Shown here: positions 2,699 through 12,939 of the stretch, piece by piece | How the letters are laid out: every line of letters begins with the position of its first letter | How positions within the stretch are numbered: position 1 is the first letter of the stretch | IMG/VR virus record: IMGVR_UViG_3300030060_006664 | Span: 1 to 20,842 of that record | DNA: 20,842 nt | Origin: a virus | Strand: one strand, 5' to 3' | Translations under genes and position numbers: made by a program | Notes under the pieces: generated by a model | Database searches by the model: none | Told to the model about the DNA's origin: nothing | What the model saw: the letters and a program-made list of their open reading frames with translations, nothing else

Positions 2699-2740
2699 GC
2701 GAGTCCCTGACCTTGCGAGTCCCTAACCTTGCGAGTCCCT
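2699..2740 (+). repeat. 16-bp tandem repeat containing GCGAGTC
   Basis: GCGAGTCCCTGACCTT (2699-2714) and GCGAGTCCCTAACCTT (2715-2730) are followed by a partial GCGAGTCCCT (2731-2740). The copies differ at one base. This is the densest cluster of the window-wide motif; a fourth GCGAGTC follows at 2760. Confidence 0.85.
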
Positions 2741-2743
2741 CGC

Positions 2744-2767
2744 AAAAAAAAAGACCCTTGCGAGTCT
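2744..2767 (-). terminator. Rho-independent terminator with GCAA tetraloop
   Basis: The leftward RNA would read AGACUC-GCAA-GGGUCU: six pairs including one G-U, closed by a GNRA-type tetraloop and followed by eight U. It lies just past the stop of the 120-aa gene. One stem half is the GCGAGTC motif. Confidence 0.75.
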
Positions 2768-2782
2768 CTTTTTAAAAGATTT

Positions 2783-3145
2783 TTACAAAACTAATTTATC
2801 TATATATTCATAAATTTCTTCTATTGGATAATCATTCATAAGAACTAAACACTTGCCGAAAACATAATTTTGTTTTTGTCCAAAAACTTGATAAGCTTGA
2901 AAAACTTTAAATTTCCATTTATGAGTAGTTATTGAATTTCTTATATTGTATCTATCACTATAATTTCTAGCACCATTTATGTTTTCTTTCTCCCATTTCT
3001 CTTGTTCTTTTAAGTTTCTATCAGTTGTATATCCAATAAAATCTAAATAAAAATCAAAAGGTGTACTTGTATGTTTTTTAAAATCAGAATTCATTTCATA
3101 CAATTCTTTTATAGGGTTAGACTCCCCGAATGCCTTATTGTTCAT
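2783..3145 (-). CDS. Hypothetical protein, 120 aa
   Basis: No family is recognised. It is a charged soluble protein rich in Tyr, Asn and Lys, with an aromatic-rich central and C-terminal part (for example WKFKVFQAYQVFGQKQNYVF). The start codon overlaps the end of the upstream 57-aa gene by 11 bases, which suggests translational coupling. A terminator follows immediately. The codons around its start carry GACTCCCCGAATGC, a 14-mer found again at 4503. Confidence 0.65.
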   Translation of the reverse strand: MNNKAFGESNPIKELYEMNSDFKKHTSTPFDFYLDFIGYTTDRNLKEQEKWEKENINGARNYSDRYNIRNSITTHKWKFKVFQAYQVFGQKQNYVFGKCLVLMNDYPIEEIYEYIDKLVL

Positions 3146-3308
3146 TGTTTAACCTCTTAATTTTAGAATTAATTGATGAATACATTTTTCTTTTTTCTGT
3201 ACTCATATTTCTTACATCAAGTGCAAACCAAGCTTCAAATAAAACTTCTGATAAAAACTTGACTTCTTCTTTGGTGCATATGTCACCAAGTGGATCATTA
3301 CTAAACAT
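3135..3308 (-). CDS. Hypothetical protein, 57 aa
   Basis: The chosen ATG is preceded by AAGGAGG (3318-3324 on the other strand) at nine bases. This is better supported than the longer reading from a TTG at 3347. The protein starts MFSNDPLGDICTKEEVKF and is likely mostly helical, with a basic C terminus (KIKRLNN). No family is recognised. It overlaps the gene upstream (a 24-aa leader ORF) by 8 bases and the gene downstream by 11. Confidence 0.55.
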   Translation of the reverse strand: MFSNDPLGDICTKEEVKFLSEVLFEAWFALDVRNMSTEKRKMYSSINSKIKRLNNEQ

Positions 3309-3375
3309 TTTTGCATACCTCCTTAATCGCAATTTGTCCAACTTCAAAAGCTTTGGTTTGTTGAATAGTTTTCAT
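3301..3375 (-). CDS. 24-aa leader ORF
   Basis: A short ORF, MKTIQQTKAFEVGQIAIKEV plus four residues, whose last codons contain the AAGGAGG ribosome site of the next gene. Its stop overlaps that gene's ATG. The layout suits a leader peptide that couples translation to the 57-aa gene, or a small protein. It has no good ribosome site of its own, so its translation is uncertain. Confidence 0.35.
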   Translation of the reverse strand: MKTIQQTKAFEVGQIAIKEVCKNV

Positions 3376-3462
3376 AATTTAAAAAAAATTTTAAGAGTTC
3401 CAGAAAACCAGAACCTATTAATATTATAGCAACAAATCCTACTAATTTGCTAGAAAATAAGC

Positions 3463-3468
3463 TATAAT
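3463..3468 (+). promoter_or_regulatory. Putative -10 element of the rightward small-gene operon
   Basis: TATAAT lies 23 bases before the ATG at 3492. TTGCTA at 3447 is too close (10 bases) to be a normal -35 box, so recognition would rest on the -10 alone. The surrounding AAGCTATAATTAGGG nearly repeats AAGCTATAACTAGGG at 2055-2069. Confidence 0.5.
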
Positions 3469-3491
3469 TAGGGAGTAGTTACATTATTTCT

Positions 3492-3977
3492 ATGAAAACA
3501 AAAACTAAAAGTGGTCATCCTATGAGGAAAACTACTTTTCAAATAAACGAGGACAAAACCTTTAATGGTTATTCGGGCAATACATATTGGAACGGATGGG
3601 ACGAACCTTGCTTTGATCAAAAAACTGCACAAGAAGTTTTAGATTATTATCTAAATCAAGATTGCAAAGAATCCGCAGATGATTGGAGAGAATGTTTTCA
3701 AGAAGTTTTAGATTTTGAAGACAAAATTATCTTTTCTAAATTAACTTCAATAAATCTTGCAAATGGCGAAACTGTATTTGAATTTGGTTTTGGATATTGT
3801 TGGCACGAAGTAGAAGACAACGAAAAAGAAGTTGTTTTGTCTTTAACAAAAAAAGCTTCTCATTCTCTATATCAAGCACTAGATGTTTTTGTTATGAAAA
3901 ATCTAGATAGTGCATGGTCAAATGATGAGAAAGATCTTTATGAAATTTTTAACACATTAGAAAAGGAGGTTAAGTAA
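3492..3977 (+). CDS. Hypothetical protein with WNGW motif, 161 aa
   Basis: First gene of the rightward operon. The N-terminal region has NGYSGNTYWNGWDEPCFD. A similar 'WNGW..P.F' pattern occurs in small phage and cyanobacterial proteins of unknown function that I recall only as a pattern. The rest is acidic with many Trp and Phe residues. An alternative start is the Met at codon 11 (3522). The last codons (GAGGTTAAGTAA) carry the ribosome site AAGGAGG for the next gene, whose ATG follows the stop directly, so translation is probably coupled. Confidence 0.65.
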   Translation: MKTKTKSGHPMRKTTFQINEDKTFNGYSGNTYWNGWDEPCFDQKTAQEVLDYYLNQDCKESADDWRECFQEVLDFEDKIIFSKLTSINLANGETVFEFGFGYCWHEVEDNEKEVVLSLTKKASHSLYQALDVFVMKNLDSAWSNDEKDLYEIFNTLEKEVK

Positions 3978-4520
3978 ATGTCAAAATATGTTTCTTACGA
4001 ATCTTGGGAAAAAGATTTTTTTACAATTCCTAATCTCCCCGAACTAGAAAGTGTTATGTGGAAACATGGCATTTGTGATGTACACGAAGATGCTGCGAGT
4101 CTCTTAATCTTTAGACAAGGTAGTTACATCGAACAATTTAAAGATGGCACATATCATGTCTGTTTAGTTAGATCAGATATTTACGACAAAGATTTAAATG
4201 TTGTAAAACGTGCTTTATATAATTGGTGCGATGGCGAATTATTTAACCTACAAAATGGTTTTAAATTTGGCTCATACAAAAGTGAAAATGGATGCACTTG
4301 GGATCTTCAAGAATTTGCAATTTTGGCAGATTCTTATGATGCATGGTTAAAAAAAGAAAATCTTCCAAAAATGGATATAGGAGATTTACTTTATTGTTTT
4401 GAACCAATTAACGGAAAACATTTAACAGATACTCAAAGAGACACATTACGTTCTTATGAAAGAATGTGGACTTTAGTAGATGATGCTTTTAATAAAAAGG
4501 AGGACTCCCCGAATGCATAA
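3978..4520 (+). CDS. Hypothetical protein, 180 aa, paralogue of the 5228-5566 product
   Basis: Unknown family. It matches the 112-aa protein at 5228 in order: YESWEKDFFTIPN against FEEWKKDYEDIPY, HGI, FRQGSYIEQF against FKHGGYYEIL, and KRALYNWCDGELFN against EKELYEWCNGEIFN. The shared core is followed here by about 80 extra residues. The protein is acidic and soluble, with no membrane segment. AAGGAGG lies eight bases before the ATG. The end overlaps the next gene's start by eight bases (ATGCATAA). One GCGAGTC motif lies inside (4095). Confidence 0.65.
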   Translation: MSKYVSYESWEKDFFTIPNLPELESVMWKHGICDVHEDAASLLIFRQGSYIEQFKDGTYHVCLVRSDIYDKDLNVVKRALYNWCDGELFNLQNGFKFGSYKSENGCTWDLQEFAILADSYDAWLKKENLPKMDIGDLLYCFEPINGKHLTDTQRDTLRSYERMWTLVDDAFNKKEDSPNA

Positions 4521-4695
4521 CATCAAAGTTACTACAGAAGAATTGTTTGAATTAGTAGAAATGCTAGAAGACAAAATTCAATATGATCAAGATCTAATTC
4601 CTTTATATAAGAAATTATCATCTATAGAAATTCCAAAACCTATAGAAAATTTTGATTATGAAATTCCCGAATACAAACCAACAAAGAGGTTTTAA
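4513..4695 (+). CDS. Small acidic protein, 60 aa
   Basis: Starts MHNIKVTTEELFELVEM. The ATG at 4513 is chosen because GGAGG precedes it at a suitable distance and it overlaps the stop of the previous gene. A longer reading from 4480 would run far into that gene. The N-terminal half should be helical (EELFELVEMLEDKI) and the C terminus is Pro-rich (EIPKPIENF, EIPEYKPTK). No family is recognised. Confidence 0.55.
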   Translation: MHNIKVTTEELFELVEMLEDKIQYDQDLIPLYKKLSSIEIPKPIENFDYEIPEYKPTKRF

Positions 4696-4697
4696 CA

Positions 4698-5228
4698 ATG
4701 CTTAAATTTAAAATATGGGAACATCACAATCCCAAAATTTCAGAACCACACATGAGAGACTTGCTAGAAAAACTTAGCGAGTCTTCTTCTAATTGGTATG
4801 GCGATAGCTATGCAAATGATTGTATGGCAAATGTATCTTTGCAATATCAAGAGAATAGATGGATACATATTCAGATTCCTAACTCAAAAAATGATCGCCC
4901 TGATAACGAAGAATTTTCAAAATTTTATGTCTATCACAGCGATCAAGTCTATGACTTTGAATTTAATAAAGAGTGCGAGTCTCTCGATGAAGCAGTAAAA
5001 GTTGCGACTGATTTATTAAAAAAATTAGGTGGTGATAAAACTGTTCCTCAATATTGTGTGACTATTACAAGATCTGAGAGAGGTTATATCCATTTTAATA
5101 ATTTTGCAGATGCAAAAAAATTTAAAGACGATGGATTTATTCCTGATAATTTAGCAGATGATATTAATTGGGATGGAGGATCAGATGAATTTGATTTAGA
5201 AAACACTACTTATTGGAGGAAAAACTAA
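4698..5228 (+). CDS. Hypothetical protein, 176 aa
   Basis: Unknown acidic soluble protein with many Asp, Asn and aromatic residues. Features are an N-terminal KFKIWEHHNP, a middle stretch RWIHIQIPNS and a helical segment LDEAVKVATDLLKKL. GAGG lies upstream of the ATG. Its TAA overlaps the next ATG (TAATG). Two GCGAGTC motifs fall inside it (4777, 4975), read as Ser/Cys-Glu-Ser codons. Confidence 0.65.
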   Translation: MLKFKIWEHHNPKISEPHMRDLLEKLSESSSNWYGDSYANDCMANVSLQYQENRWIHIQIPNSKNDRPDNEEFSKFYVYHSDQVYDFEFNKECESLDEAVKVATDLLKKLGGDKTVPQYCVTITRSERGYIHFNNFADAKKFKDDGFIPDNLADDINWDGGSDEFDLENTTYWRKN

Positions 5229-5566
5229 TGACAAAAATCACATTTGAAGAATGGAAAAAAGATTATGAGGACATTCCTTATATCAAACAAAACTACAAAA
5301 AAATCCATGAAGAACATGGCATTCCAAAAGAATGCATAAATGGTGGAGAAGGTATAATGTTAGCCAATTCGGAAGGCGAAGTAGATCAACATACAACAAT
5401 ATGTGTGCGAGTCTTTAAGCATGGTGGTTATTATGAAATTCTTTTAAATAGCCAATATTATTTGCTTCTCGGTAATGAAGATTGGTTAGAAGACTCTCCT
5501 GATTTAATAGAAAAAGAATTGTACGAATGGTGCAATGGAGAAATTTTTAATACGGAGGAAAATTAA
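5228..5566 (+). CDS. Hypothetical protein, 112 aa, paralogue of the 3978-4520 product
   Basis: The start at 5228 has GGAGGA seven bases upstream and overlaps the previous stop. A reading from 5213 would lack this. It shares the core W-KD-IP, HGI, FKHGGYYEI and ELYEWCNGEIFN blocks with the 180-aa protein two genes earlier but lacks that protein's C-terminal extension. No function is known. The pair looks like a within-operon duplication that has diverged strongly. A GCGAGTC motif sits at 5407. Confidence 0.65.
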   Translation: MTKITFEEWKKDYEDIPYIKQNYKKIHEEHGIPKECINGGEGIMLANSEGEVDQHTTICVRVFKHGGYYEILLNSQYYLLLGNEDWLEDSPDLIEKELYEWCNGEIFNTEEN

Positions 5567-5757
5567 TGCTTACAATTATTTATAGACAACTTAATGACAA
5601 TGGGATTTTATTTTGTAATCCTCAGAATTACAGAAATAGTCCTTTAGGTAGAGTTGCAGATTTTACAATCTTTGATGCTCCAAAAGACCTAAAAAATGAA
5701 GTTGGAAATTATATGACTTTACCAATAGAACAAATGATTATTTCAGAGGTTAAGTAA
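5566..5757 (+). CDS. Hypothetical protein, 63 aa
   Basis: Starts MLTIIYRQLNDNGILFCN with GGAGG upstream and TAATG overlaps at both ends. No family is recognised. The C-terminal codons end GAGGTTAAGTAATG, almost the same junction as at 3966-3980, so the ribosome site of the next gene is built into this gene's last codons. Confidence 0.55.
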   Translation: MLTIIYRQLNDNGILFCNPQNYRNSPLGRVADFTIFDAPKDLKNEVGNYMTLPIEQMIISEVK

Positions 5758-5933
5758 TGCTTATCAAATCAACAAACAAAAAAGGCACATTTACTTGTGA
5801 TAGAGATGGAAAAAAATTAATTGAATTAATTGATTCTTTATGGTGGGGACGAGATCGATGGGATAGTTCCACAGAAAAAGTAATGAATAAGATTGCAGAT
5901 TTATTAGAAATGGGAGAAGAAGAAAATGACTAA
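5757..5933 (+). CDS. Small hypothetical protein, 58 aa
   Basis: Starts MLIKSTNKKGTFTCDRDG, then LIDSLWWGRDRWD and an acidic helical tail (LLEMGEEEND). The ATG overlaps the previous stop (TAATG), GAGG lies just upstream, and the last codons overlap the next gene's start. It is supported by tight packing in the operon. No family is recognised. Confidence 0.55.
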   Translation: MLIKSTNKKGTFTCDRDGKKLIELIDSLWWGRDRWDSSTEKVMNKIADLLEMGEEEND

Positions 5934-6213
5934 AAAAGAAAAGAAGAAAAAAATGAAACACCCTCAACAAGAATTTATAGATTATATTTTTGATTTTTAT
6001 GGCAAAGATGGTATCTATGATATGAAAGCAACAAAAGAACAAATAACAACTGCTACAAACATAAGGCTCAAAAGTCTTAAATATGTCAAACTACCTTTTG
6101 AAGCTGACACAATAGATAGAGAAATCGTAAGGGACATTTTAATAGAAAAATTTGCTCTTAATTTTCCAGAATCAAACTATGTACTAAATGAAAAAGGTAT
6201 ACAAAAAAATTAG
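5926..6213 (+). CDS. Hypothetical protein, 95 aa, basic N terminus
   Basis: Last gene of the rightward operon. It starts MTKKEKKKKMKHPQQEFIDY. The Lys-rich N terminus could bind nucleic acid (inference). The rest is mixed helical, with no recognised domain. The start overlaps the previous gene by eight bases. Its stop codon TAG lies at the left foot of the bidirectional terminator and overlaps the stop of the convergent gene. Confidence 0.6.
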   Translation: MTKKEKKKKMKHPQQEFIDYIFDFYGKDGIYDMKATKEQITTATNIRLKSLKYVKLPFEADTIDREIVRDILIEKFALNFPESNYVLNEKGIQKN

Positions 6214-6428
6214 GACTCTTGCGAGTCCTTTTTAATTTCTGATTCAACTGCTTTCTCTAATAATAAGGTTGCGAGTCCTGTAGGTTTCATATCCTTATAT
6301 TTAGAAAATTCTATGGTTGTCTCACTTCCACAAGTAGGACATTTATTTGTAGGAGATTTTTTTGTTAGAGTTTCTAATTGCTCATAGCATTTATCAGAAA
6401 TTCTAATATTAAATTGTCTTTTAGACAT
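6210..6428 (-). CDS. Ribbon-helix-helix-like protein with CPTCG insert, 72 aa
   Basis: The N-terminal QFNIRISDKCYEQLETLTKK fits the strand and first helix of a ribbon-helix-helix DNA-binding fold, and PTGLATLLLEKAV fits the second helix. Between them lies an insert with CPTCG (30-34), a Cys pair like half a zinc ribbon. Two such chains in a dimer could share a metal, which is inference. Its ribosome site GGAGGA is flanked on both sides by CGAGTC motifs (6433-6447). A transcriptional regulator is the likely role. The target is unknown. Confidence 0.55.
   Translation of the reverse strand: MSKRQFNIRISDKCYEQLETLTKKSPTNKCPTCGSETTIEFSKYKDMKPTGLATLLLEKAVESEIKKDSQES
6212..6233. terminator. Bidirectional terminator between convergent operons
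   Basis: AGGACTC-TTGC-GAGTCCT is a perfect 7-bp stem with a 4-base loop. Four T follow on the right. On the left is A7 (with two intervening T), which gives a U-run for leftward RNA. In leftward RNA the loop is GCAA, a GNRA tetraloop. Both flanking genes stop here. Confidence 0.85.
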
Positions 6429-6448
6429 AGTGCGAGTCCTCCGAGTCT

Positions 6449-6685
6449 TTAGTAAGGGTTGCCATTATTGAAGAAAAAATCATCTGATTTTGCTCCCTCC
6501 TGGATTCCTAAAATTTTTAATTTTTCTAGGAGGCCATTAATAATTTTCATATTAATGAACGGAGACTTTTCTTCTGTACTTGCTACATGATGTAGCAAGT
6601 CTTCGAGCTGAGAATGTTCCACCGAGGATAAACCAAGGTGGAAAATTTCTAATGCTTGCGAGTCTTGCGAGTCTTTTATATTCAT
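6449..6685 (-). CDS. Hypothetical protein, 78 aa
   Basis: Unknown protein. Its residues DSQDSQ near the N terminus are two consecutive copies of the GCGAGTC motif read on the other strand. The middle is His/Leu-rich (SQLEDLLHHVAS) and is encoded over a 23-nt palindrome (6578-6600). The start overlaps the previous gene by four bases (ATGA). It may be a small partner of the neighbouring regulators; nothing shows this directly. Confidence 0.5.
   Translation of the reverse strand: MNIKDSQDSQALEIFHLGLSSVEHSQLEDLLHHVASTEEKSPFINMKIINGLLEKLKILGIQEGAKSDDFFFNNGNPY
6578..6600. repeat. 23-nt palindrome inside a coding region
   Basis: ACTTGCTACAT (6578-6588), one G, then ATGTAGCAAGT (6590-6600) form a perfect inverted repeat of 11 bp per arm. 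A second, weaker inverted repeat (TTCCACC with GGTGGAA) follows at about 6617-6645. The right arm ends in GCAAGTC. Confidence 0.8.
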
Positions 6686-6873
6686 TCTTCATCCTCATAA
6701 ACTTCATCATCTCCTTCTTCTTTTAGTTCTAACTCTCCAATAGAAGATTCTTTTATCACTTCAATAATATCGACAAGTGCATCGCTTGAAGTTTCATCAA
6801 AGTAATAATTTTTGTATTTAGTCATGCCAATAGTATTGAGTATTGCATGATCAACAAATTCATAAAGTTTCAC
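6682..6873 (-). CDS. Small acidic protein, 63 aa
   Basis: Starts with GTG (MKLYEFVDHAIL), with AGGAGG about eight bases upstream. The stop of the preceding gene overlaps this start (GTGA). The C terminus is strongly acidic (EEGDDEVYEDEE). Such tails occur in small phage DNA-mimic or inhibitor proteins, but the resemblance is only in charge. No family is recognised. Confidence 0.5.
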   Translation of the reverse strand: MKLYEFVDHAILNTIGMTKYKNYYFDETSSDALVDIIEVIKESSIGELELKEEGDDEVYEDEE

Positions 6874-7280
6874 TTAATTACCTCCTCATCTGTTGGTGTA
6901 TTAGTTGCATAAGATTCAATTCTTTCTGATAAAGGTTTTATTAATACATCAGAATATTTTTTAGTTTTTGAATCATATTGGGTATTTGAAATATACTCAT
7001 TAACAGACTTCCAACCTTTTTCTTTTCTTTGCTCTGAAGAAAGTTCCCAAAAATTTTCAAGCTTTTCAAGCTTTTCATTTAATTTGATTTGCTTCTTTTC
7101 TTCTTCAGTAAATTCAGAATCTATTTTTTCAATAGTTACATCTGTCTCATGAAATAAAAAATCTAAACCTTCTGCATATATTAAATAATGCATATCGGAT
7201 AATCGTCTTTTTTGATCTTTAGCAATCCTGGTCAAAAGATCATAATCTTTATCTGGAATTAAGATTTCAATTTTTTTCAT
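6870..7280 (-). CDS. Ribbon-helix-helix-like protein with coiled-coil region, 136 aa
   Basis: Starts MKKIEILIPDKDYDLLTRIA. The first 40 residues fit a ribbon-helix-helix or CopG-like fold. A Lys/Glu-rich stretch (EEEKKQIKLNEKLEKLENF) then suggests a coiled coil. The ATG at 7280 is chosen because a promoter-like TATAAT lies about 25 bases upstream; a reading from 7325 would start upstream of that TATAAT. It is the first gene of a four-gene leftward unit ending at 6212. Likely a regulator, moderate confidence. Confidence 0.5.
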   Translation of the reverse strand: MKKIEILIPDKDYDLLTRIAKDQKRRLSDMHYLIYAEGLDFLFHETDVTIEKIDSEFTEEEKKQIKLNEKLEKLENFWELSSEQRKEKGWKSVNEYISNTQYDSKTKKYSDVLIKPLSERIESYATNTPTDEEVIK

Positions 7281-7304
7281 AATAATAAATGAATGTACCC
7301 CTCT

Positions 7305-7310
7305 ATTATA
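7305..7310 (-). promoter_or_regulatory. Putative leftward -10 element
   Basis: TATAAT on the minus strand, about 25 bases before the ATG at 7280. No recognisable -35 box is present; a CTAGC hairpin lies just upstream. Confidence 0.4.
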
Positions 7311-7318
7311 CATGATTC

Positions 7319-7333
7319 CTAGCAAAAAGCTAG
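7319..7333. terminator. Weak hairpin after the ligase gene
   Basis: CTAGC-AAAAA-GCTAG forms a 5-bp stem just past the ligase stop codon. It has no good T-run in the leftward direction, so it is a weak terminator or attenuator at best. Confidence 0.3.
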
Positions 7334-7340
7334 ATAATTA

Positions 7341-8117
7341 TTAATCAAGTTTCCATTCTTTTACTGCTATTGCCCATCTTGGTGCAACACTACCACTACC
7401 TAATTTTTGTTGTAATTTATGGTCAACTACTTTAACTACTAAACCATCTGTTGGATATCTAGAAAAAATTAAACTATCTTTCCAATCTTCATGTAATGTT
7501 TTAACTTTCTGTATAACATTACTATCTATATATATATGACCACATACATGAAATTTTTGATCTAATAAAAGTTTTATAGTGTCAATCTCATTTCCTTCAT
7601 CTTTACCCATAATTTCAAAAGCACAAAATGCGAGTCCCTCTCCTGTCGGTGCTTTTTTTCTCATATGCCCTGCCGCAAGTCTTTGACTTTTAAGGTGTCC
7701 TGTTAAACCATATAATTCACCTCTTACTTCTATAGTGTCAATAATTTCTATTTGTTGTGGTAATCCTTTTACTGTTCTCATTGCAGCAGTAATATCTTTA
7801 CCTTTTCTATTCCAAGCTTTAACAAGTCTTCCATATTTATATCTAAGAGCTACTGCACAACCATCTATTTTTGGTTGGACAATGACAGGTGGATTATTTG
7901 GCAAGTCTTTATACCAAGAAATAAAAGAATAATTTCCTAAACTTAATAATTCTGTACCGCCACCTGGAGATAACAAGATTGGATGTTTTGGGTCTAAATT
8001 TACAAGTGTTGCTCTTAACTCATCAAACAATGCATCAGATATTAATGGATTACCTGCTCGATAAGCTTCATCATATTTTTGTATTTGTTGTGCTAGTTCT
8101 TCTACGTTAACCACCAA
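7341..8117 (-). CDS. Minimal NAD-dependent DNA ligase (Ia plus adenylation domain)
   Basis: This 258-aa protein matches only the N-terminal half of bacterial LigA. Residues 15-40 resemble the Ia domain (YDEAYRAG, LISDALFDEL). The nucleotidyltransferase motifs follow: KIDG with the presumed adenylated Lys83, EVRGE (130-134), PTDGLVVKV (222-230) and APRWAIAVKEW (245-255). It stops there. The OB-fold, zinc finger, helix-hairpin-helix and BRCT domains of the usual ~670-aa enzyme are absent. Either another protein supplies DNA binding, or it is adenylation-only. The start is uncertain: TTG at 8117 or GTG at 8114, with no clear ribosome site. Confidence 0.75.
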   Translation of the reverse strand: MVVNVEELAQQIQKYDEAYRAGNPLISDALFDELRATLVNLDPKHPILLSPGGGTELLSLGNYSFISWYKDLPNNPPVIVQPKIDGCAVALRYKYGRLVKAWNRKGKDITAAMRTVKGLPQQIEIIDTIEVRGELYGLTGHLKSQRLAAGHMRKKAPTGEGLAFCAFEIMGKDEGNEIDTIKLLLDQKFHVCGHIYIDSNVIQKVKTLHEDWKDSLIFSRYPTDGLVVKVVDHKLQQKLGSGSVAPRWAIAVKEWKLD

Positions 8118-8152: not shown

Positions 8153-8959
8153 TTATGCAGATTTACCACGTTTTTGAATATTGTTTAGCAATATATCTTT
8201 AAATTCTCTTCTTGCTATTCTTTCAATAGTTTGTTTAAAATTTTCTGCTTTTGGTTTTACACTAGGTGTATTAGTGTATGTAAAGAGCTTTGCAAGTTTT
8301 TGCTTTCCTCCTTCAGTTTTAACTCTATAAATTCCAGGTTCTAATTTTTTAAATTTACTTTGACCTTTAAATTTTACTGAAAAAACCCTTCCGTTCTGTA
8401 TTTGTGAACTTCCACTAAAAACTTTTTTTGCTTTAAACTTTGGACCTATAAAATTAGATTTAAATCCACCTTCTAATGTTTTATTTAATGCTCTTTGCGT
8501 ATTTGCATAAACATGACCTAATACTCTTTGGTTTGTTCCTGTAGTTTTTATAAATTCATTACTTTTATTAGGAAGTGGATATTGATTACTAGATGCAAAA
8601 CCTTTTCTATGTAAAAATTTTGTAAACCTAGTTTCAAAAGCTTTATTACTTCCACCACCTATAACAGGATATAAATAATTAGCGGGTGAATTTCCTTTTG
8701 ATTGATCATCTTTTACAGAAATAGTAACTTTATTTTTATCTGCATTACTTAAGAAACTATTTAATGTAAAAGGTACAGGATCTATAAATTTAACTTTTCC
8801 TTTTTTGTATTCAAAAGGTAAACCTTTTTGACTATTTTTAGCTATTAAAAAACCAATTTCTTTTGCAGCTACATAAGTAGAATTTCTTAAAGATTTAGGA
8901 GAATATTTATCAATTTCATCTATTAATGGTTTTACATTAATTGTTATTTTTGAAGCCAT
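8153..8959 (-). CDS. Possible phage virion/tail-associated protein, 268 aa
   Basis: The order of blocks recalls a family of phage proteins of about 270-300 aa that I associate with virion assembly: an N-terminal helical part (AAKEIGFLIAKN), then SPANYLYPVIGGGSNKAFE (111-129), a short KFLHRKGF stretch, PGIYRVK near 208 and a C-terminal IERIARREFKDILLNNIQKR. The match is from memory and the function is unproven. It would be the only structural-type gene in the window. It is a basic protein rich in Lys and Phe. A TATAAT (8988-8993) precedes it, so it may be transcribed separately from the replication operon. Confidence 0.45.
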   Translation of the reverse strand: MASKITINVKPLIDEIDKYSPKSLRNSTYVAAKEIGFLIAKNSQKGLPFEYKKGKVKFIDPVPFTLNSFLSNADKNKVTISVKDDQSKGNSPANYLYPVIGGGSNKAFETRFTKFLHRKGFASSNQYPLPNKSNEFIKTTGTNQRVLGHVYANTQRALNKTLEGGFKSNFIGPKFKAKKVFSGSSQIQNGRVFSVKFKGQSKFKKLEPGIYRVKTEGGKQKLAKLFTYTNTPSVKPKAENFKQTIERIARREFKDILLNNIQKRGKSA

Positions 8960-8987
8960 ATTTTCTTACAAAAATATAATTAAATAT

Positions 8988-8993
8988 ATTATA
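8988..8993 (-). promoter_or_regulatory. Putative leftward -10 element for the 268-aa gene
   Basis: TTGCTATAAT on the minus strand, about 30 bases before the ATG. Just upstream, AGTCTC and GAGACT (8997-9016) form arms around an uninterrupted run of eight T, a possible operator or hairpin. No clear -35 box. Confidence 0.4.
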
Positions 8994-9018
8994 GCAAGTC
9001 TCTTTTTTTTGAGACTGA

Positions 9019-9217
9019 GTCCAACCTTGGCAAAATGTCCAACCTACTTTCTATATAATTCCTTTTTTTTGGTGCGTATATATGATAGGCCGTTTTTCGC
9101 CCTATGATAGGGTATATTCTATATTTATACTAACTCTTATAATATTAGTTAGACGTTAGACAAAGCTAGTTATATCAAAGGTGTCCGACCTGTGTCCAAC
9201 CTTAAAAAGTCCAACCT
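9019..9217. other. Candidate replication origin: iterons flanking an AT-rich core
   Basis: GTCCAACCT occurs at 9019-9027, 9037-9045, 9194-9202 and 9209-9217, with the variant GTCCGACCT at 9183-9191. All are in the same orientation. They form two groups around about 135 AT-rich bases that include a 13-nt palindrome. The segment lies directly downstream of the primase-helicase gene. In SaPI-type satellites, short iterons flank an AT-rich region beside the rep gene in the same way. Origin function is inferred. Confidence 0.55.
9100..9112. repeat. 13-nt palindrome in the AT-rich core
   Basis: CCCTAT-G-ATAGGG is a perfect odd palindrome. Its left half also pairs with GATAGG at 9084-9089 across a T-rich loop (CGTTTTTCG), so two alternative hairpins are possible. 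TATGATAGG occurs twice. It looks like an operator or part of the origin. Confidence 0.6.
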
Positions 9218-9226
9218 GTAAACATT

Positions 9227-11353
9227 TTATACAAGCAAGGTGTCCGAGTCTCGAATGTAGACCCATTTGCGACTCGTTTTTTCGCCTCTTCGTTTTTTAA
9301 CGAGTCCCAAGTCTCTTAAAATCGAAGCAACTTGCATTTGATCTCCTCTTGTTTGTCGCTCAATTGGTTTTAATATTGCTTCTGTAAGTATTGCTTCTGT
9401 TGTTAACTCACGATGCCTATTTTGAGGATCATTTATAAAACTTTCTATAACAGATTTCCAAGGACTATCTATTAAATATTTTACGTTTTCGTTATTAACA
9501 ATTGACTCTGATTCTTGATCTAAAGTCCAAGGTTCTTTATTTAAATATGCAGAAACTGCTGAAGCCCAAATAGAATTTTTTTCTTTTAACAATCCATCAC
9601 AATCTATTTGATTTGTATTATCTCTAGTAGTTTGACAAATCCAAAATCTTCGATTTCCAGAATCATCTAGTAGCAAACCGTCTGTCTTATTTGAAGTCCC
9701 GACAATAATTCCCCTTCTTTTGAAAACTTCTGTTGATTTACCATATGGAACTCTGAAAATATCTGTTGATTGTGATAAAAATGCCTTTACTTCCCCTGCT
9801 TGTTTTCGAGTTGTTAGAAAATCCAATTCGGAAAATTCCATTACCCAACTTCTATGAAGTACCATAAGCGAGTCTTTGTTTGATATATCTTTTAATGCAT
9901 CAGAAAAAAAATGACCTCCTAATGTAGACCAAAAAGTAGATTTTCTAGCTCCTTGCTTTCCAACTATTACAAAGCAATTATCAAATTTACAACCTGGATC
10001 AAATACACGAGCTACTGCTGCGATAAGAGTACATTTCAGCATTTTGTCATAAATAGTAGGTGCTATTGGTTTATCTTCGGGTCTAAGATATGTTGTAGCT
10101 AATTCATCAATATAAGTAAGTGGTTCAGTACTATGAACATGATCTAAATATTCTTTAACAGGATCATATTCATTTTCTCTAGCCACTTGAACAACAATAT
10201 CGTAAGCAATATCTTTAGAAGCTTTTATACCTTTTTCTGCAAGTTTTAAATAATATCTATCTAATGCATCCTCCCCTTCACAAAGTTTTCCATCTTTTTC
10301 AATTTGTTGAGTAAAAATATTATATCTAAATGGTAATTTTCTTACCATTTCTAAGAGCTGATGGGCTTCTAATTTTTGTAATGGTTGTTTTTCCATCACA
10401 ACAACCTGATCAGGTTTTTCGATACTTTTTATCTCTACAAGTTTTGGTGGATTGTATCCATGTTCTCGTGCGAAAAACCAAAAAGTCCCTGCCTCAATTT
10501 GTGACCCACCTGATCTAGCTACTTGATCAATGCCACCCCATTGTGGAGAATGATTTTTCATAAGTGATATTGCATCATCAATATTTTTGCCAATGTCATT
10601 ACAAGCTTTAGTCAAACCCCAAAGCAAGTTTCTGTAATAGTCATAAGTTCCTGTACCTGGGATTCTAGGTGGTATATGTTCTAATGCTTTTTGTATGTCA
10701 TCAAAAGTTCCTTTTTTATATTCTGTAAAAGATTTACTTTTTTTAATTTTTTCTGCCTGTTGTTTATCAGGTAAACAATCTTCAATTTCTTTTAATGTAT
10801 ATTTCTTTTCTGACGAGCTGATAATTCTTGTCATCTCTCTTTTTGTTCCATCATCTCCCATATGAAAAGTACCTGGAAGACGCATAACTCGTGATGGATT
10901 TTTTAAGGCTCTATCAGCATCTGCATAATCAAGTAATCTTTCTTGAATAGGCTTCCAAGTTTTTGGGTCTATAGATTTTTTTAAAACCCAATAATTATGT
11001 ATTGATTTACCACCTGTATTAATTTGCATGGTAGGTTCGGGGAGTCCCAAGTCTTTCCATGCATTAATCTGCTGTTCTTGAGATCTATCATCCCATTCGC
11101 AAAAGTAGGCTCTACAACTTGTTATTTCACTATCAGTATCCCCACCATCATTTACAACAACATAAACACCTCTTCCTTCAGACTGACATTGTGTAATCCA
11201 ATTAACATCAGCATGAGATTTTTTACCTCGATCAGTATTTTTTAGTGGATGGTTTTTAGGGTAGAAAGACCGTAAGCGAACAGTATTTCTCTCTTTTCCT
11301 AAAATTTTTAAAAAAGTTCGCCATTGTGACTTGTCTACATCAAGTTCAGACAT
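9227..11353 (-). CDS. RepB-like primase fused to VapE/VirE-type helicase, 708 aa
   Basis: A replication initiator-type protein. Residues 55-165 resemble the RepB-like (archaeo-eukaryotic) primase: VYVVVNDGGD, CEWDD (85-89, likely metal-binding acidic residues), TGGKSIHNYW (113-122) and NPSRVMRLPG (152-161). Residues 215-300 look like a primase-associated helical domain (FDDIQKALEHIPP, YRNLLWGL). Residues 400-580 match the virulence-associated protein E ATPase: Walker A VGKQGARKS (464-472), an acidic Walker B-like VMEFSEL (504-510) and VFKRRGIIVGTSN (543-555). The C-terminal end is a variable winged-helix-like region. It should prime and unwind DNA at the phage origin. It is the last gene of the leftward replication operon, with the iteron segment right behind it. 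Confidence 0.85.
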   Translation of the reverse strand: MSELDVDKSQWRTFLKILGKERNTVRLRSFYPKNHPLKNTDRGKKSHADVNWITQCQSEGRGVYVVVNDGGDTDSEITSCRAYFCEWDDRSQEQQINAWKDLGLPEPTMQINTGGKSIHNYWVLKKSIDPKTWKPIQERLLDYADADRALKNPSRVMRLPGTFHMGDDGTKREMTRIISSSEKKYTLKEIEDCLPDKQQAEKIKKSKSFTEYKKGTFDDIQKALEHIPPRIPGTGTYDYYRNLLWGLTKACNDIGKNIDDAISLMKNHSPQWGGIDQVARSGGSQIEAGTFWFFAREHGYNPPKLVEIKSIEKPDQVVVMEKQPLQKLEAHQLLEMVRKLPFRYNIFTQQIEKDGKLCEGEDALDRYYLKLAEKGIKASKDIAYDIVVQVARENEYDPVKEYLDHVHSTEPLTYIDELATTYLRPEDKPIAPTIYDKMLKCTLIAAVARVFDPGCKFDNCFVIVGKQGARKSTFWSTLGGHFFSDALKDISNKDSLMVLHRSWVMEFSELDFLTTRKQAGEVKAFLSQSTDIFRVPYGKSTEVFKRRGIIVGTSNKTDGLLLDDSGNRRFWICQTTRDNTNQIDCDGLLKEKNSIWASAVSAYLNKEPWTLDQESESIVNNENVKYLIDSPWKSVIESFINDPQNRHRELTTEAILTEAILKPIERQTRGDQMQVASILRDLGLVKKRRGEKTSRKWVYIRDSDTLLV

Positions 11354-11381: not shown

Positions 11382-11735
11382 TTAGAGGGAAAGAATATTT
11401 AAAGCATCTTTAATACTTCTTGCAACACCCGAAATCCCTCCAGAGTCGTGTATATAGTTAAGCCAATTTTTTTGAATTTGGGTAGGCTTATTTTTATTAG
11501 TTTTTATTTCAATTGATACGAATTGAGCTATTTCTTTGCCGACCATATCAGGAGTTATTTTAACTTTTTTAAAACCGATAAGATCAGAAGAACCTTTAGC
11601 CAATCCAAATTGAACATAGCGACCAGATTTTGGATGAGGGAGTTGACCCACTTGATTACGAAAAAGGCGAAGAGTTGGTATCTTGCCGAGTGCAAGTCGA
11701 ATTTCTTGCTGAAGTAGGGTTTCATCGTTGCTCAC
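11382..11735 (-). CDS. VRR-NUC domain nuclease, 117 aa
   Basis: A single-domain nuclease of the VRR-NUC type (PD-(D/E)XK fold). Visible motifs are LLQQEIRLALG at the N terminus, LFRNQVG, a FGLAKGSSDLIGF block with the catalytic Asp, VSIEIKTNK with the E-x-K pair and QKNWLNYIHDSGGISGVAR. Such proteins occur in phages next to SF2 helicases. They cut branched or flap DNA, as in FAN1 relatives. The GTG at 11735 gives a protein of normal family length and a 14-base overlap with the methyltransferase; a reading from 11786 would add 17 residues with no family match. No strong ribosome site is visible. Confidence 0.8.
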   Translation of the reverse strand: MSNDETLLQQEIRLALGKIPTLRLFRNQVGQLPHPKSGRYVQFGLAKGSSDLIGFKKVKITPDMVGKEIAQFVSIEIKTNKNKPTQIQKNWLNYIHDSGGISGVARSIKDALNILSL

Positions 11736-12939
11736 GCTCCAATTGTATAACCCTTTGCAAGGGTATGGCAGCAACTTGAGGAACAATAGAATTGCCTAAC
11801 ATTTTAAGTCTTTGAATTCGTTGTTTAGCGTCCAATTTAGTGGATAGCCCATCATCTCCTCTACAAATTGTGGGTTGAGATACATATTGTTTCCAGTTTG
11901 GGTTAAGTCGGTGTTCTGTACATCTCCATGTTTGTGAAGTTTGGCTGCTATTTCTGTTTCGAGATATTTCTTGTGTTCGAGATCTGCCATGTTCTCGCTT
12001 AGTTTCATCCCCATTCCTATTGCTGCTCTCGGTGTTGGTAGTTGATCCGCTACATCTGGAAGAGTTGCTCCGTAACCTCTCTCCTTGTAATCGGGTCTTG
12101 TCTTGCCTTTCCAATCCCTCGCTCTCGGTGTTGGAAGAAGAGAAGCTGCTAACAATGGCTGGTTTTTGTTGTTGTAACTGTTGACTCCCTGTTTGTGAGT
12201 TGTTGCTGTTGGTGTAGGTAAAAGAGAGTTGAATATTTCCTGAGTCTTTGGATTTACTGCTTCCCTCAGATTTGACAAAGAAGTACGACCTTTTCTCGCA
12301 CCCTCCATCTGTTTCTTCAATGATTCGGGACTTCGTTGATTTAGATGATCCATTGTTGTTGGTGTGGGTAACATCTCCCGATCTATTGCCGCTCGAAGTG
12401 GAGTCCCTCCCTGTTTGAATTTTGCTTTTCGATCTGGATCTGAGTTTAGAGGGGTAGGCAATAAGCCAAAATCTATCTCTTTGGTGGCAAGCTCCAACAA
12501 AGCTGCTTGGAATACAGCACCATTCTGCATCGTACCCTGCCTTGTAAAGTTCAGCGAGAACGATGTCCATTCCGTTAGTAAGGATAGCTGACACGTTTTC
12601 CAGGATGACGTATTTTGGTCGTACCATGCATATGGTTCTGATGAGTTCGTAGAAGAGACCAGACCTTGTAGTCTCTGTGATGCCTTGCTGTCTCCCTGCA
12701 ACTGAGATGTCTTGGCATGGAAATCCTGCTGAAATAACTGATGCTGAGTATGGTTCTGCGGTGTAGGTTGTGATGTCATCGTGTATTGGAATGTTAGGAA
12801 AGTTTTTTTTAAGGATTTGTTGGCAATAAGGATCTTTTTCAATGAATCCTACAGTTTCGTAACCACCTACAAGTTTTTCCGCAGCGTAACTAAAACCGCC
12901 AATCCCTGCAAATGTATCAAGTAATTTTAATTTATTCAT
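11722..12939 (-). CDS. C5 cytosine DNA methyltransferase, 405 aa
   Basis: All key catalytic motifs are visible: motif I LDTFAGIGGF (7-16), motif IV GFPCQD with catalytic Cys75, motif VI ENV (114-116), motif VIII QRDRFWLI (153-160) and motif X GNSIVPQVA (382-390). A typical motif IX is not obvious. Residues 165-360, where the target-recognition domain should be, are Ser/Thr/Asn/Arg-rich with repeated T-N-T-x-S-like units. That same DNA carries a 300-codon-plus ORF in another frame with normal protein composition. The enzyme probably modifies phage DNA against host restriction. The target sequence cannot be read. The start overlaps the HNH gene by eight bases. Confidence 0.9.
   Translation of the reverse strand: MNKLKLLDTFAGIGGFSYAAEKLVGGYETVGFIEKDPYCQQILKKNFPNIPIHDDITTYTAEPYSASVISAGFPCQDISVAGRQQGITETTRSGLFYELIRTICMVRPKYVILENVSAILTNGMDIVLAELYKAGYDAEWCCIPSSFVGACHQRDRFWLIAYPSKLRSRSKSKIQTGRDSTSSGNRSGDVTHTNNNGSSKSTKSRIIEETDGGCEKRSYFFVKSEGSSKSKDSGNIQLSFTYTNSNNSQTGSQQLQQQKPAIVSSFSSSNTESEGLERQDKTRLQGERLRSNSSRCSGSTTNTESSNRNGDETKREHGRSRTQEISRNRNSSQTSQTWRCTEHRLNPNWKQYVSQPTICRGDDGLSTKLDAKQRIQRLKMLGNSIVPQVAAIPLQRVIQLEREQR
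11796..12779 (-). CDS. Out-of-frame ORF inside the methyltransferase (LPTP-repeat protein)
   Basis: An open frame of 327 codons from the ATG at 12779 (TTG at 12842 is also open), lying wholly inside the methyltransferase on the same strand. It reads FHAKTSQ across the methyltransferase GFPCQD motif, then SSWKTCQLSLL, FSLNFTRQGTMQNGAVF, five LPTP units (for example LLPTPRARDWKG) and MYLNPQFVEEMMGYPLNWT. I recall very similar phage proteins annotated as separate hypotheticals (DSHAKTS at the start, LPTPTARD repeats, LNP-WVEWLMGYP-GWT at the end). It may be a true overprinted gene, or an artefact kept open by methyltransferase conservation. No ribosome site is visible. Confidence 0.45.
   Translation of the reverse strand: MTSQPTPQNHTQHQLFQQDFHAKTSQLQGDSKASQRLQGLVSSTNSSEPYAWYDQNTSSWKTCQLSLLTEWTSFSLNFTRQGTMQNGAVFQAALLELATKEIDFGLLPTPLNSDPDRKAKFKQGGTPLRAAIDREMLPTPTTMDHLNQRSPESLKKQMEGARKGRTSLSNLREAVNPKTQEIFNSLLPTPTATTHKQGVNSYNNKNQPLLAASLLPTPRARDWKGKTRPDYKERGYGATLPDVADQLPTPRAAIGMGMKLSENMADLEHKKYLETEIAAKLHKHGDVQNTDLTQTGNNMYLNPQFVEEMMGYPLNWTLNNEFKDLKC

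Follow-up and report, generated by a model that had tools for sequence, protein, structure and literature searches.

An iteron array beside a PrimPol-VapE primase-helicase gene as a predicted replication origin in tailed phages

Does a cluster of short repeats lying next to a primase-helicase gene mark the place where a virus begins to replicate its DNA, and is the neighbouring enzyme the protein that recognises it? This question is raised by a viral stretch of 20,842 nucleotides, referred to below as the window, in which such a cluster occupies positions 9019-9217. Similar layouts have been described in mobile elements: the Rep protein of SaPIs recognises iterons directly downstream of its own gene through its C-terminal domain, the C-terminus of Cch2 binds the Cch2 iterons (PMC7581432), and a rep-ori segment of one PICI supports plasmid replication in E. 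coli (PMC6092414). As argued below from sequence comparison, the array in the window is very probably the replication origin of the phage, bound and opened by the adjoining PrimPol-VapE protein.

The iteron array and the adjoining gene

The array lies within a 267-nt intergenic gap (8960-9226), bordered by the 3' end of vapE and by a minor-tail gene. The features of this region are given below; L005-L010 are relatives with VapE proteins of 80-95% identity.

8153-8959, minus strand: minor-tail gene, the other border of the iteron gap
8988-9016, minus strand: extended -10-like TTGCTATAAT with the inverted repeat AGTCTC-N8-GAGACT, seen in the sequence and kept in L005-L010
9019-9027, plus strand: iteron GTCCAACCT, distal group copy 1, exact match; position kept in L005-L010
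9037-9045, plus strand: iteron GTCCAACCT, distal group copy 2, exact match; kept in relatives
9046-9182: spacer between the iteron groups, presumed melting core, 29.2% GC
about 9148-9161, minus strand: two degenerate inverted iterons GTCTAACGTCTAAC in the core; in L009 and L010 the corresponding position has an exact inverted GTCCAACCT
9183-9191, plus strand: iteron variant GTCCGACCT, vapE-side group, one mismatch; exact GTCCAACCT there in L006-L010
9194-9202, plus strand: iteron GTCCAACCT, vapE-side group, exact match
9209-9217, plus strand: iteron GTCCAACCT, vapE-side group, exact match
9227-11353, minus strand: PrimPol-VapE primase-helicase, 708 aa, presumed initiator (Pfam VapE, E 2.8e-60; PHROG DNA helicase)
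9230-9481, minus strand: C-terminal winged helix, residues 625-708, presumed iteron reader (AlphaFold model; winged-helix matches)
9479-10111, minus strand: VapE helicase domain, residues 415-625 (PF05272, E 2.8e-60; PriRep1 7pds, E 4e-29)
10856-11335, minus strand: AEP primase domain, residues 7-166 (PrimPol AEP structure 6zp9, E 7e-33)

The four exact copies of GTCCAACCT and the single GTCCGACCT reported in the first-pass annotation, split into two groups (9019-9045 and 9183-9217), were all recovered, and the segment is indeed directly 3' of the VapE-type gene, the last iteron ending at 9217 and the stop of the minus-strand vapE lying at 9227. No further exact copy of GTCCAACCT is present outside the array in the 22.6-kb record, and the five copies (at most one mismatch) found here in 199 nt compare with a maximum of two in any of 300 dinucleotide shuffles. 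The five good copies do share the single orientation claimed for the repeats, unlike the two degenerate inverted ones in the core, which are kept in relatives. The array in the window is without dyad symmetry, its good copies running one way with the degenerate inverted pair between them.

Other properties ascribed to the segment fared less well. The supposedly AT-rich core is not distinct: GC is 29.2% in the core, 30.5% in the window and 31.1% across the intergenic stretch as a whole; since the whole genome is AT-rich, the core can be so described only in absolute terms. A perfect palindrome does exist in it (the 8-nt TAATATTA, 9140-9147), but it looks trivial and was not seen to be kept in L006-L010. 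The spacer also contains a G-rich stretch (approximately 9085-9112, vapE strand), which is present in relatives too. The minimum of the cumulative GC skew, proposed as a check, falls near 15 kb with no turn at 9.0-9.2 kb, which formally speaks against an origin here; however, the turning points, near 6.2 kb and 15 kb, coincide with flips of gene orientation, and the skew is therefore uninformative and carries no weight.

The presumed initiator combines an AEP domain and a VapE helicase domain in one protein. The structure matched by the former, 6zp9, bears a PDB title that gives PrimPol AEP domain only, and we take it to be the PrimPol of cyanophage S-2L. Residues 625-708 were modelled by AlphaFold, with 30 aligned relatives, at pLDDT 87.9 and with the order H-H-H-E-E, the recognition helix being RGDQMQVASILRD. 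Structural matches of this C-terminal model were to winged-helix regulators and to the C-terminus of PriRep1, with moderate-to-low scores (Z of about 6), and a Foldseek search with the small model gave zero matches at E<=0.001. The structural matches are consistent with a winged helix but lack specificity.

Arrays beside VapE and DUF5906 genes in other phages

The prediction that the same layout should stand beside homologous genes was borne out in all of L005-L010, which carry GTCCAACCT on both flanks in arrays beginning 13 nt beyond the open frame. The exact 9-mer is absent beside vapE in L011, L012 and L014, in which VapE is 61-64% identical; in L011 and L014 GTCCATA-type repeats are found instead (GTCCATACC in L011), together with a change from Gly to Tyr in the recognition helix. 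More distant VapE phages have repeats of their own at the same place, and the lineage-specific repeats after VapE genes include TGTTGCATCA (Staphylococcus phages), GTTGCCGAT, TGTCACCAACCT and TGCCCTACCT.

The generality of this arrangement can be judged from 120 nonredundant VapE loci, collected in two alignment-driven scans regardless of repeats; the L005-L010 group and records close to the window were obtained separately from this set. A repeated 8-mer with z>=3 relative to shuffles occurs in the 450 nt past the stop in 75 of the 120 loci, compared with 5/106 in the 450 nt before the start, and at z>=5 the figures are 57/120 downstream versus 1/106 upstream. About a third of these loci are without a significant downstream repeat at z>=3. 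Exact GTCCAACCT in at least two copies was found in one of the 120; its rarity in this protein-chosen set marks GTCCAACCT as just one of many specificity classes. Placed on a VapE core tree of 80 rows, GTCCAACCT needs 9 changes, at least 6 of which are forced by well-supported branches.

Two loci merit separate mention. The top repeat after vapE in L330, GCGATCGC, is no iteron but the cyanobacterial HIP1 palindrome, and in L342 a repeat (ATGTGAAA, z 11.3) lies before vapE rather than after it.

The opposite approach started from the repeat and was blind to genes. Viral contigs were scanned for three copies of GTCCAACCT spaced by at most 25 nt, which yielded 59 loci, some of them near-copies of one another so that counts are not independent events; 47 of these have a VapE (36) or a DUF5906 (11) gene, and the array is 3' of the gene in all 47. 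A shifted motif, three copies of TCCAACCTG, served as the control; four of its 14 matches were shared with the motif scan, so only the 10 new loci were used, and none of them (0/10) has a VapE or DUF5906 gene. Scanning of genome contigs gave 7 VapE and 9 DUF5906 arrays, 16/16 on the 3' side, in hosts that include Neoroseomonas, Caldovatus, Rhodoblastus, Chelatococcus, Ancylobacter and Microvirga. A further 69 one-strand matches in genome contigs were set aside, as they have no VapE or DUF5906 gene nearby and their spacing mostly resembles that of coding tandem repeats.

In 14 of 15 whole records with exact copies, all copies or all but one are in one array. Dyad symmetry is frequent among the larger arrays (8-12 copies), whose groups then face each other as in +++ / ---; the mean paired fraction is 0.65, compared with 0.43 in shuffles, and the fraction reaches 1.00 in L029 and L239. 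Such symmetry fits two head-to-head helicase rings.

The DUF5906 proteins found in these scans are phage primase-helicases (phrog_1156) that resemble the window protein in the same 9-mer, dense 3' arrays and a winged-helix C-terminus, but belong to another Pfam helicase family; the similarity between DUF5906 and VapE helicases is at most marginal. Among 72 nonredundant DUF5906 loci chosen by protein, with a query alignment that was built from motif-bearing loci and may favour their kin, GTCCAACCT is present in at least three copies in 11 and is the commonest such 9-mer, whereas none of 200 permuted 9-mers reaches at least three copies in the same 72 loci. Most of the remaining DUF5906 loci have variants such as AGGTGGGGCA, AGGTGGGACA, AGGTAGGAC and AGGTCGGACA.

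The recognition helix and the iteron sequence

For DUF5906, too, a winged helix is predicted at the C-terminus (pLDDT 86.4). In a profile comparison the VapE and DUF5906 C-termini align over 41 columns, comprising the recognition helix and the wing, with 27% identity, a probability of 53% and a pairwise E of 1.4e-4, which is suggestive of kinship between the two domains.

An iteron consensus was available for 69 DUF5906 loci. Among them, Thr at a single recognition-helix column pairs with ACCT/AGGT in the iteron (2 x 2 table 30, 2; 5, 32; Fisher p 4.5e-12). This pattern was first spotted by eye in the same data, and hence every C-terminal column was scanned; the next-best column gave p 1.6e-3. 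The trait undergoes 13 changes on a DUF5906 core tree built without the C-terminus, and independent pairs number about 4.5 agreeing against 0 opposite, too few to reach 0.05. Among 12 later DUF5906 loci outside the discovery set, 11 match the prediction as fixed beforehand (6, 0; 1, 5; Fisher p 0.015). A divergent hold-out from genomes was too small to weigh for or against the rule, with 4 of its 6 informative loci in agreement (4, 1; 1, 0). L168, with a GTCCAACCT array and no Thr, is a clear exception.

In a test across VapE the top-ranking columns include the homologous one, together with many others of about equal strength (p 1e-7 to 1e-9), so that specificity at this column is not separable from phylogeny. 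Within the clade of the window, as read from the table, the residue after QTR, the first of the recognition helix, is Gly with GTCCAACCT (QTRGDQM in the window type), Tyr with GTCCATA (QTRYDQM in the L011 type) and Ser with TTCCTA/GTCCTA; Ala, Gln or Val accompany variants like TGCC(C/T/A)(A/T)ACCT, with exceptions such as L270.

It is conceivable, at slightly under even chances in our estimation, that VapE and DUF5906 share one origin-recognition system, in which homologous winged helices would read iterons of the approximate grammar TG(T/C)CCNACCT, GTCCAACCT would have been reached or kept several times independently, and single recognition-helix residues would set the half-sites. Were this so, the origin specificity of such phages would be predictable from protein sequence. 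The recognition-helix residue singled out above is a candidate whose exchange should alter origin recognition.

Origin function and alternative readings

The first-pass annotation had proposed an origin of the SaPI type used by the primase-helicase, and this proposal is well supported by the comparisons above, from which we infer both binding and origin activity. By analogy with work on SaPI Rep, Cch2 and PICIs (PMC7581432, PMC6092414), PrimPol-VapE would use its C-terminal winged helix to bind the AGGTTGGAC/GTCCAACCT iterons and would form helicase rings on both iteron groups; the DNA between the groups would then be melted by these rings, and the AEP domain, with a host polymerase, would prime synthesis. 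Reading of the iterons by the C-terminal domain is favoured indirectly by the winged-helix model and by the helix-iteron covariation in DUF5906.

Could the repeats instead be operators of the tail-gene promoter, bound by VapE or by another phage regulator, with no origin involved? The extended -10-like TTGCTATAAT and its inverted repeat, conserved in L005-L010, do lie between the iterons and the tail gene. Nevertheless, arrays remain 3' of VapE and DUF5906 genes in very different phages, contain up to 12 copies across 200-320 nt, often with dyad symmetry, which exceeds a typical operator, and in DUF5906 their iterons covary with the helicase's own C-terminus; we therefore regard operators without an origin as very unlikely. 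The same promoter-like element adjoining the iterons would also suit an origin through which the initiator additionally regulates transcription of its own region, but the element at 8988-9016 is not listed by a consensus promoter scan, and such a double role, while plausible, seems rather improbable.

The adjoining tail gene might suggest a packaging (pac/cos) or recombination site, placed beside vapE by chance, as repeats near a structural gene could mark packaging. No terminase match was found among the window genes scanned beside the array, however, and arrays follow the gene for a replication helicase and, in DUF5906, the part encoding its DNA-binding domain, which makes a packaging or recombination site extremely unlikely. 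A chance cluster or a decayed tandem repeat devoid of function is hardly credible: although many three-copy matches in genome contigs are indeed single-strand arrays without such a gene, these are mostly of short regular spacing, whereas the spacing in the window is irregular, its copy number was never reached by shuffles and the array is conserved in relatives.

The presumed origin can be set beside known systems. As in SaPI/PICI rep-ori segments, the iterons of the window form two sets immediately beyond the 3' end of the gene for the presumed initiator helicase, and a presumed melting region lies between the sets (PMC6092414, PMC7581432). This comparison with SaPIs is apt as regards layout, the level at which it is drawn; the spacer in the window is no AT-richer than the rest. 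The replicon has the look of a tailed phage and not of a satellite. Tail, ligase, RecT-like and SSB genes are present on the 22.6-kb fragment that makes up the record, and the array of a close relative is in a 55.5-kb record. PICIs are small phage satellites that have an integrase/AlpA-type module and lack a full set of virion genes; the element here looks like a phage and is not assigned to them. In the SCCmec system of Cch2/CCPol-MP, a presumed self-loading helicase uses its C-terminal domain to bind short direct repeats that lie downstream of its gene, much as is predicted for the window (PMC7581432); there, however, helicase and polymerase-primase are separate proteins and the iterons are of 5 nt, whereas in the window AEP, VapE and winged helix are united in one protein.

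Among named phages the closest relative is cyanophage S-LBS1 (54% over residues 303-701). Its gene is followed immediately by GCCCAACCT/TGCCTAACCT iterons, one to two bases off those of the window; the iterons of S-2L are strongly different. The gene order of S-2L (SF2 helicase, VRR-NUC, PrimPol) is like that of the window minus two intervening genes. No origin is annotated at the place of the array in the stretches of S-LBS1 and S-2L examined. In phage P4 the initiator is the primase-helicase alpha, which binds short iterons by means of a winged helix at its C-terminus; its iteron is a different one, and ori and crr are two distinct sites. The likeness of alpha to the window protein is one of general description.

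The layout itself is known from SaPIs and PICIs. Its occurrence across ordinary tailed phages appears to be new, as do the one 9-mer common to two helicase families and the candidate specificity residue; in the open-licence literature no paper was found on GTCCAACCT, on the shared grammar or on the specificity residue, and the sequences listed for the letters of the 9-mer were all unrelated. An origin would thereby be predicted for a very large set of phages, the replication start of which is mostly unannotated in the records examined, and an origin layout said to be unique to satellites would extend to ordinary tailed phages. This matters for the question of which phages and satellites are able to replicate one another's origins and for the evolution of initiator specificity, and makes the way in which such enzymes recognise their start sites testable.

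Several other features of the window were observed. The octamer TGCGAGTC occurs 12 times on the plus strand and 0 times on the minus strand of 2713-7636, where TTGCGAGTC occurs 7 times; with one mismatch allowed, TGCGAGTC is present 18 times against 1.7 expected. Its one-strand bias is also seen in L005-L011 and L014, on the strand opposite vapE, and there is none in L012 and L013. Tandem arrays of TTTTTTTAGA (5 copies) and GCGAGTCCCTAACCTT (2.6 copies) are located at 2631-2740, and the stretch 1616-2782 has no listed open frame of at least 60 aa. The NAD-dependent DNA ligase (7341-8117, minus strand) is short, 258 aa, and its one matched domain is that for adenylation. At 11722-12939 and 11796-12842, both on the minus strand, a C5-methylase gene and a 348-aa open frame overlap in different reading frames.
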